Source of the DNA: Halobacteria archaeon AArc-dxtr1
GTDB lineage: Archaea; Halobacteriota; Halobacteria; Halobacteriales; Natrialbaceae
Direction: 5' to 3'
Assembly (NCBI GenBank): GCA_025517425.1
Contig: JAOPJY010000002.1
Span: 1 to 64,000 of the forward strand
DNA: 64,000 nt
A program made the position numbers and the translations under genes. This document shows positions 17,372 through 19,656 of the stretch, piece by piece (the stretch's first letter is position 1; every line of letters begins with the position of its first letter). A model generated the notes under the pieces. The model was given only the letters and a program-made list of their open reading frames with translations, was not told where the DNA came from and searched no databases.

Positions 17372-18310
17372 TCAGCCTTCGAGTTCGCCGTTGACCTCGT
17401 CACGAAGCGTCGCCATCTCGACGACGCGCTCGGCGTGGGCGTTGTGCTGGTGGATCGACTCGTCGTTCGACTGTTTCATCGTGATCACGGCGTCGTCCGG
17501 GAGGTGATCAAAGTCGTCGACGACGCCCTCGGCCATCGCACGCACGCAGTCTTCGACGAACTTCGCGTCCGCGTGGGAGGCGTAGGTCATGTGGTCCTCG
17601 TCGGGGCGCTTTGCCAGGTTGTAGATTCGCGCGCTCATCGAGTCGCGAGCGATGTCGATAACGTCGTTTAGATCGACCGCGGGGTCGCCGCCGGCCTCGA
17701 CGGTCAGGGTCGCGTGGCCGCGCTGGGAGTGGCCCGGCTGGGGAACCTGATCCAAGAACTCGGTGATCGTCTCCTCCTCGACGCCCAGATCCTCTAAGGT
17801 CTGTTTCGCACGAGCAACGGACATCCCCTGCGAGCAGGGACAGACCGTCATCCCGGTGACCGTCGCGCCGATCTCCTCGCGGGTGCCCTCGTCGGTGGCG
17901 GTCGCCGCAGCCACGATATCGACCATATGCTGCGTTTCGCGGTCGCTCTCGGGAGTCTGTTCGCGGCGCATGAACTCGGCTTCCATCGAGACTTCGGCCC
18001 GGGAGGTGTAGTCGTGTTTCTCGAGGAGGCGCTCGGCCGCGTCGCCACAGACGTCTTCGACGCGGTAGGCCTCCTCGCGGGTGGCGTCCTCTAAGATCTC
18101 GTCGATGACCTCCATGTTGCGGCTCATGTCTGCGCCCTTGCGCCAGGCGGGCAGGTCGACAAAGACCTCGAACTCGGCGGTGAGGACGATCGGTCGCTCT
18201 CCCTCGCGGGCGATCTTGACGAGCTTCTCGACGCCGGTCACGCCGACCTGACTCAGGCCAACGGTGACGTCGGGGGCCGACGCCTGCACGTCGGGAAGTT
18301 GTGGACTCAT
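17372..18310 (-). CDS. mptA: GTP cyclohydrolase MptA
   Basis: 312 residues of the COG1469/FolE2-like family. Archaeal MptA is an Fe(II)-dependent GTP cyclohydrolase that makes 7,8-dihydroneopterin 2',3'-cyclic phosphate for tetrahydrofolate or methanopterin synthesis. The family signature [13 protein letters not shown] with the metal-ligating Cys is near residue 155, and [13 protein letters not shown] and [10 protein letters not shown] follow. Start at 18310 (MSPQLPDV) rather than three codons earlier. Upstream, on the other strand, lie three copies of a short promoter-like repeat. Confidence 0.93.
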
Positions 18311-18421
18311 TGGCCGCATTCGGGCCAGGATGGGATTAGCCCTTTCGAAAGGCGAAGTTCCGCCGGCGGGATGTCCTCGGTGGAGGGAGTCCTATGGGGG
18401 CGGAACGATCCGGCGCAGTTG

Positions 18422-18460
18422 TTTAAGTGCTTCTGGTCACAAGGTGAAGCCATGACGGGA
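18422..18460 (+). repeat. Promoter-start repeat, copy 1
   Basis: The unit begins with TTTAAG, a haloarchaeal TATA box, continues with GTGCTTCTGGTCACAAGGT and ends with an ATG exactly 30 nt after the first T (18452). The ATG opens a 21-codon reading frame ending at 18517. The stretch CTTCTGGTCACAAG is a near-palindrome with one mismatched pair. Copies 2 and 3 keep the sequence and spacing, so it looks like a leaderless promoter with an operator near the start site. Confidence 0.7.
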
Positions 18461-18517
18461 GATTGCGGGCCAGTTTTTCGAGTCGATACATCCAGTAGCG
18501 GAGCGCGAACTGTGTGA
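18452..18517 (+). CDS. Possible 21-residue peptide after repeat copy 1
   Basis: An ATG placed 30 nt after TTTAAG opens a short frame beginning MTGDCGPVF and ending SSGARTV. No homology is recognised. The frame shares only the first codons (MTG) with the peptide after copy 2, so either the RNA rather than the peptide is the product, or the start region alone is under selection. Confidence 0.3.
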   Translation: MTGDCGPVFRVDTSSSGARTV

Positions 18518-18541
18518 GTGTCGAACCAGCCCGCGCCTCTG

Positions 18542-18580
18542 TTTAAGTGCTTCTGGTCACAAGGTGGAGCTATGACGGGA
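18542..18580 (+). repeat. Promoter-start repeat, copy 2
   Basis: Starts exactly 120 bp after copy 1. It is identical through TTTAAGTGCTTCTGGTCACA and differs from copy 1 only at two positions before ATGACGGGA. The ATG at 18572 opens a 14-codon frame (MTGSRLLEKHRFER) ending at 18616. Confidence 0.7.
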
Positions 18581-18616
18581 AGTCGCCTTCTCGAGAAGCA
18601 CCGTTTCGAGCGATAG
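18572..18616 (+). CDS. Possible 14-residue peptide after repeat copy 2
   Basis: Leaderless-type ATG 30 nt after the TATA-like TTTAAG. The product would be MTGSRLLEKHRFER, which is basic and has no recognised relatives. Support is from the promoter position only. Confidence 0.28.
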   Translation: MTGSRLLEKHRFER

Positions 18617-18708
18617 CCCCGGCAGTGTGGATCAGGACAGTGGGAAGCGCGTGGCAGTTGACTCGAGGGGACAACAGCCGAGTAACAGGTTTGCCATCCG
18701 AACGTTTC

Positions 18709-18747
18709 TTTAAGTGCTTCTGGTCACAAGGTAGAGCTATGAAGGGC
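18709..18747 (+). repeat. Promoter-start repeat, copy 3
   Basis: Third copy, 167 bp after copy 2. TTTAAG to ATG is again 30 nt. It differs at the two variable positions before the ATG and reads ATGAAGGG rather than ATGACGGG. Sequence on either side of the three units is unrelated. Confidence 0.7.
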
Positions 18748-18780
18748 ATTTTCGCGGGTACCTCTCTCCGGAAGCGATAG
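18739..18780 (+). CDS. Possible 13-residue peptide after repeat copy 3
   Basis: The ATG at 18739 gives MKGIFAGTSLRKR then TAG. As for the other two copies, only the promoter spacing supports it. Between 18781 and 18918 nothing else is seen before the epsilon gene. Confidence 0.28.
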   Translation: MKGIFAGTSLRKR

Positions 18781-18918
18781 CTCTGTGGTCGATTCGACCC
18801 GGGAGCGGTGACTTCGGCGCCGCCTCGACTCAGTAGCCGAGGAACGTATCGGAATGCGTGAGCGAACCCAGGCGACGAGCGAGCCTTTTTCCGTCTGCCC
18901 GTCTCACCTCCCGACGAG

Positions 18919-19656
18919 ATGAGCGAGGATGCGGGCACGGAACACGCGACCGTCACGGACCGTCCGGAGCGACGCATCGAAACCCGAGCCGGAGCCGGCT
19001 CGGTCTCTCGCGCCGACCTCCAGCGGGACGCGACGGTTCGACGCTGGGGCGTCGTCACGCCGAGCGCGACGGTGATCGGCCGTGCAGACTCGACTGAGGG
19101 CGACGTCTCCGAAAGCGTCCGCCGACTGCACGACGAGCAGCATCCGGCGACGCCCGGCTACGGCGAGCGCGCCCACCGACTCGATCGCCTACGGACGACC
19201 CAGGCACTGTGTAACGCCTTAGAGCTGACACCCTGGCAGCGAGATCTGGCGCTGGGCGTGATGGACGCAATCGACCTCCGGGGGTTCGGCAGTCAGCGGG
19301 CGATCCCGACGGTCGCGCTGGTGGTGATCCGCCACGTCGTCGACGTCGACCGGCAGGCGTACTTCGGCCTCGACGACGTCGACGTCTCGGCGCTCTCTCC
19401 GGATCGGATGGAAGAGCTGTTCGCGGAGTACCGCGCCCACGACATCACGGACGACCCGACGTTCGAGCGCTTGGCCGAACGCCATGGACTCGATACGACG
19501 AGTCTCAACCGACTTCGGCGAGTGTTAAAAGCCCAACTCGACGAGGAGTTGCCGGCGTACGGGCGCGAGCCGTGGCGCGATCCGAATCTCCCCGCAGCAG
19601 CCCGGACAGAGGTCGACGGCGAGGCCGACGGCGGGACAGGCGAGGGAGCGAGTTGA
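18919..19656 (+). CDS. Haloarchaeal RNA polymerase subunit epsilon-like protein
   Basis: 245 residues, soluble. The N-terminus RRIETRAGAGSVSRADLQRDATVRRWGVVTPSA matches by memory the family annotated in haloarchaea as DNA-directed RNA polymerase subunit epsilon. The middle contains an alpha-helical region (about 90-150) and the C-terminus is acidic and low-complexity. The biochemical role of the family is not well defined, so the name should be treated as an annotation tradition. It is convergent with NAD kinase, with 27 bp between. Confidence 0.6.
   Translation: MSEDAGTEHATVTDRPERRIETRAGAGSVSRADLQRDATVRRWGVVTPSATVIGRADSTEGDVSESVRRLHDEQHPATPGYGERAHRLDRLRTTQALCNALELTPWQRDLALGVMDAIDLRGFGSQRAIPTVALVVIRHVVDVDRQAYFGLDDVDVSALSPDRMEELFAEYRAHDITDDPTFERLAERHGLDTTSLNRLRRVLKAQLDEELPAYGREPWRDPNLPAAARTEVDGEADGGTGEGAS

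Follow-up and report, generated by a model that had tools for sequence, protein, structure and literature searches.

The window, that is, the whole stretch of 64,000 nucleotides analysed here, belongs to a 2.8-Mb haloarchaeal genome and carries, between the gene mptA and the gene of an RNA polymerase subunit epsilon homologue, three copies of a short repeat, designated R below. The features of the locus are the following:

17372–18319, minus strand: mptA, the gene for the GTP cyclohydrolase MptA, the left neighbour in Natrialbaceae, lying outside the R unit
18412–18459, plus strand: R copy 1, TTTAAG at 18422, exact block 18422–18445, class GAC
18532–18579, plus strand: R copy 2, TTTAAG at 18542, exact block 18542–18565, class GAC
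18699–18746, plus strand: R copy 3, TTTAAG at 18709, exact block 18709–18732, class GAA, the usual class beside epsilon
18877–18892, plus strand: GAGCGAGCCTTTTTCC, a putative epsilon promoter box about 30 nt before the start codon, conserved in relatives
18919–19656, plus strand: the gene for an RNA polymerase subunit epsilon homologue of 245 aa, with which R is constantly associated

The earlier note on this DNA had described three units of TTTAAG, a block and an ATG, spaced by 120 and 167 bp, with the A of the ATG 30 nt past the first T and with following frames of 21, 14 and 13 codons, and all these values agree with the sequence. The 24-nt block TTTAAGTGCTTCTGGTCACAAGGT is letter-identical in the three copies on the plus strand, has a chance expectation of 0 in 100 dinucleotide-preserving shuffles of the window, and gave no further copy at up to three mismatches in the rest of the genome. 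Thus, the identity over 24 nt stands, whereas the division into TTTAAG, a separate block and unrelated flanks does not, as the exact block includes TTTAAG itself and the likeness reaches about 8 nt beyond the ATG (ATGACGGGA, ATGACGGGA and ATGAAGGGC in copies 1, 2 and 3, respectively); the 6 nt directly before the ATG vary among the copies. The main point missed in that description is that R is constantly accompanied in the genomes by the adjoining epsilon gene.

The R motif in haloarchaeal genomes

The search for similar units in haloarchaeal genomes, proposed in the earlier note, found them in many of these genomes. Exact copies of the block TTTAAGTGCTTCTGGTCACAAGGT were found in 23 stretches from haloarchaeal genomes that bear names, most of them Natrialbaceae (such as Natrinema, Natrialba, Natronorubrum and Halopiger). 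When up to three mismatches are allowed, the block is present in 129 of 392 genomes in the order, and the reversed control pattern does not appear among the matches listed. In the ungapped alignment of 211 dereplicated relatives anchored on TTTAAG, R spans about 48 bp of conserved DNA, with its limits at about −10 and +37 relative to TTTAAG. The motif is C-rich at −10 to −8, has YYC at −3 to −1, and continues with TTTAAGT, three weak letters, TCTSGYNACAAGGT and then RNAGATAYGANGGR, the centre carrying the imperfect dyad CTNG-YNR-CNAG. The identity among related copies is mostly 0.9–0.98 at the fixed motif positions and falls to the background level beyond about +55. Contrary to what had been supposed, the ATG does not belong to the unit, since the second letter of this codon is C in 70% and T in 30% of the 211 copies, which makes it ACG and ATG, respectively. 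The genomes with R contain from 1 to 17 copies of it, often in tandem. The statement that no system like these units had been described still holds for the open-access papers searched, in which no description of the R sequence was found, and no viral contigs with R were detected by a degenerate R pattern.

The transcripts of canonical haloarchaeal promoters start about 25–30 nt past the TATA. Such promoters are characterized by the BRE CGAAA, the TATA TTWT and the −10 element WW (PMC4983044). In R, TTTAAG likewise resembles a TATA box and is spaced in the usual way from a start region of purines; however, instead of the purine-rich BRE most copies have YYC at −3 to −1, and a long fixed sequence extends through the expected start site, whereas the canonical promoters have no conserved letters between the TATA and the start. 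The proposal that the stretch from TATA to start is a binding site agrees with these data: the stretch is under selection and probably serves for protein binding or for initiation. The haloarchaeal rRNA operon also has tandem promoter repeats with a conserved sequence around the TATA, and in the window's genome two 41-nt repeats lie 83 bp apart upstream of 16S. The likeness is limited to the tandem layout and the conserved TATA region, while the sequence of these repeats, CCCTTATATAC, is unrelated to R and the rRNA promoters drive rRNA, unlike R, which has no common product; R as an rRNA promoter was rejected on this sequence difference.

The dispersed copies in two genomes, G171 and G194 (L177–L186, L193, L194; R at about 3000 in most), show similarity that persists beyond the motif. 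Many of them end about 100 nt further on at the inverted repeat GTTAGTA-N4/5-TACTAAC, several are preceded by the 3′ terminus of a small gene that closes with the zinc-finger-like NPEQYSCSECGG, and these extended copies possibly mark the place where an RNA ends, act as a terminator or form a mobile cassette. Three pairs of R copies on contig C1 of G194 (1584451/2136300, 1614285/2166134 and 1703808/2255657) have one common offset of 551,849 bases, a sign that part of this genome is duplicated or was misassembled.

Linkage and co-occurrence of R with the epsilon gene

The usual order in Natrialbaceae is mptA on the minus strand, R copies, often a gene for an RlaP-family nucleotidyltransferase (PF10127), another R and epsilon, the position of R beside mptA and epsilon being stable in this family. 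In the window, the three R copies lead directly to epsilon with no RlaP gene between them, and RlaP was found nowhere in the window's genome. The interleaving of the RlaP gene with R was seen at many Natrialbaceae loci (L011:5498–6415, L005, L006, L015, L020, L021 and others), the gene starting at a median of 94 bp past an R. Outside Natrialbaceae the neighbours change, and R still flanks epsilon, upstream and co-directional with it, as in the genus f12/g48 (L084–L086), while in several genera it also converges on the epsilon 3′ end; R adjoins epsilon in at least seven families. The fetched loci form a biased sample, some having been picked by R matches and others by epsilon matches. In this sample, TTTAAG is separated from the following R by a median of 135 bp, from epsilon by 185 bp and from a converging epsilon 3′ end by 126 bp (111 at the least); an R transcript that stops short of the gene would therefore not exceed about 80–95 nt. 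In Natrialbaceae of the same biased sample, class GAC was found in 43 of 55 array-internal copies and class GAA in 40 of 51 copies beside epsilon or RlaP, and the order GAC, GAC, GAA of the window agrees with this pattern.

Many R copies lie far from epsilon and have no common downstream gene. The conserved box before the start codon of epsilon is the probable promoter of this gene and is unlike R. Because of this separate box and of the lack of a common downstream gene at the distant copies, R is a stand-alone unit. It is not simply the epsilon promoter, since epsilon has its own box and R units also face the epsilon 3′ end, and a role as the 5′ leader or promoter of a gene set was rejected in view of the dispersed copies.

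The co-occurrence was assessed by whole-genome searches of the same 195 genomes of the order, with a sequence-only R profile and with a threshold of E below 1e-40 for the epsilon orthologue. Each was found in 96 of the 195 genomes, and both in 95, with a Fisher value of 3e-54 that ignores phylogeny. Of the two genomes outside this overlap, G109 has epsilon and lacks R by the profile, the pattern search revealing one divergent copy in it; G160 has R and lacks epsilon, and this genome is 87% complete, with its R array near a contig edge. After the last R there (L205, G160:C9, after 5646) comes an apparent reading frame of an insertion sequence, and the contig ends where epsilon would be expected.

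The joint gain or loss of R and epsilon within clades is stronger evidence than the Fisher value. Thus, both are present in two genomes and both absent in four of f14/g38, both are present in two and absent in three of f1/g5, G245 alone among the genomes examined of f5 has R and epsilon, and joint changes occur also in genera of f6, f7 and f12. The main exception is f4/g65, where epsilon is present and the R model finds no copy in four of the five genomes; divergent R copies lie away from epsilon in two of these. The model also finds none in f1/g22, where in one of the two genomes epsilon is preceded by a diverged R (TTTAAGTCATTCTGGTCGTAATGG, L198). The R model was seeded from window-like copies, many of them near epsilon, and may be biased to epsilon-near forms; the genome searches were blind to position. 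Several epsilon paralogues per genome, each with its own adjacent R, were observed in f6/g30 (G061, G077, G093, G105), and distant epsilon-like paralogues, two of them with an upstream R, on plasmids (L091, L119).

The epsilon protein and its predicted fold

The epsilon homologue of the window shares 56–61% identity over 83–92% with annotated epsilon proteins on plasmids, by which the gene adjoining R is assigned to the RNA polymerase subunit epsilon family, the same annotated family as rpoeps (OE_1279R) of Halobacterium salinarum. The subunit was described by Madon and Zillig in 1983 and by Leffers et al. in 1989, both as cited in PMC8305020, where it is presented as a component found in 1983 that let the Halobacterium RNA polymerase transcribe native DNA. 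According to the same review of 2021, H. salinarum and a subset of haloarchaea possess epsilon, the polymerase with epsilon is efficient on native templates, and the relevance of the subunit is "enigmatic" (PMC8305020). No DNA target or cis element for epsilon was found in the open-access literature searched.

The AlphaFold model of epsilon has a confident helical core at about residues 81–210 (mean pLDDT at least 86 per ten residues). Among known structures it is most similar to chains of TFIIB and Brf and to cyclins. About 100 residues of the core superpose on cyclin repeat 1 of TFIIB/Brf (Z of about 10, rmsd 2.2–3.8), and the likeness extends to repeat 1 of TFIIB/Brf2; the Foldseek E-values, from 0.2 upwards, are weak, and a high score of a helical model may arise by chance. 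No Pfam TFIIB match was obtained in 25 epsilon members, the comparison with haloarchaeal TFB profiles was not significant (hhalign E of 0.44 and 0.048), and the PDB sequence search with epsilon gave nothing meaningful. In view of the weak E-values, the chance scores and the negative profiles, the claim is limited to a cyclin-type fold and does not extend to TFB membership, the descent of epsilon from TFB finding no support in the sequence profiles. The prediction for epsilon is a single cyclin repeat of the TFIIB type, whereas TFB and TFIIB have two. The epsilon of the window (18919–19653) and two distant paralogues (L114; L117) match PHROG 12649, a viral family of unknown function, which suggests that haloviruses may carry epsilon relatives; epsilon was not found in phage records.

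Possible roles of R

Being a widespread repeat almost confined to the genomes with epsilon, the R units are probably the DNA sites on which epsilon works. With moderate confidence, R may be regarded as a dedicated initiation site for the epsilon-containing polymerase, arrayed around the epsilon gene, where it would be bound, transcribed and used in autoregulation. TFB normally uses the upstream BRE, and in TFIIB the first cyclin repeat sits beside the DNA downstream of the TATA, while the second reads the BRE. Since epsilon has one predicted repeat and R is devoid of a BRE and fixed downstream of the TATA, the recognition of R by the epsilon-polymerase would be the simplest account. The polymerase carrying epsilon would bind R and initiate there, with TTTAAGT standing in for the TATA box and the TFIIB-like cyclin repeat reading the fixed TCTSGYNACAAGG downstream of it. 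Each R, if transcribed, would give one short untranslated RNA within the length limit set by the converging gene, and the arrays around the epsilon gene, which suggest feedback, would let the cell sense or titrate the epsilon-polymerase and so control it. The exception of f4/g65, the sequence profiles without TFB descent and the weak Foldseek E-values count against the epsilon reading, and the co-occurrence could reflect another epsilon-linked factor that reads R.

The units may also be seen as small non-coding RNA genes acting as RNAs, with epsilon as their main regulator, carrier or target, such as in a 6S-like action on RNA polymerase. The stand-alone tandem units about 120–140 bp apart, the TATA properly spaced from a conserved 5′ end, the T-rich stretch at about +40 to +70, a slightly favoured 5′ hairpin (4.23 vs. 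4.09 in permutations, sd 0.04, by a test that ignores relatedness and is given little weight) and the extended similarity in G171 and G194 agree with it. However, folding downstream of R is not in excess of shuffled sequences (mean z +0.12 for the 211 copies), the identity reaches background after about +55, and Rfam gives no match at R; this possibility is considered rather unlikely. A structured RNA was rejected on the same folding value and Rfam result, and T-run terminators on their small excess, at +30 to +70 only. As there is neither better-than-shuffled folding nor an Rfam match, the signal of R is ascribed to the recognition of DNA or to initiation.

An operator or decoy array, to which epsilon or its partner binds as an ordinary DNA-binding protein for self-regulation and self-titration without transcription from R, would explain the clusters around the epsilon gene, the imperfect central dyad and the dispersed copies without a common downstream gene, but many copies are distant from epsilon, and the conserved TTTAAGT, a TATA-like box at a fixed spacing from the expected start region, argues for initiation, which makes such an array unlikely. 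It is improbable that R is a selfish or mobile repeat spreading with the epsilon gene or hitchhiking on it: the multiple cassettes of epsilon and R in f6/g30 and the dispersed copies in G171 and G194, partly on plasmid-size contigs, are consistent with this, whereas the copies have no common ends, target duplications or transposase, the motif core is strictly conserved across all families, and the position by mptA and epsilon is stable in Natrialbaceae. Very improbable, in spite of the short distance from R to the interleaved RlaP gene, are R transcripts serving as substrates or cofactors of this nucleotidyltransferase in RNA repair, as RlaP occurs in 13 of 99 genomes, too rarely for a partner and not in the window's genome, while R tracks epsilon. 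The small leaderless peptides proposed in the earlier note, for which an ATG stands at the expected start site in the window and in some relatives, have an almost negligible probability, since the usual codon is ACG and neither frame nor length is common to the copies.

Returning to the initiation by the epsilon-polymerase, its widest form is a tentative one: archaea might have a dedicated initiation system in which an accessory polymerase subunit, bearing one TFIIB-type cyclin repeat, is paired with a multicopy class of promoters of its own. These would be recognised on the downstream side of the TATA box, and their short transcripts or stalled complexes would feed back on the polymerase. R, being small, multicopy and present where epsilon is, provides a candidate DNA target for this subunit and makes its role testable. 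If the initiation reading is true, the R units would represent a new promoter class recognised downstream of the TATA box.
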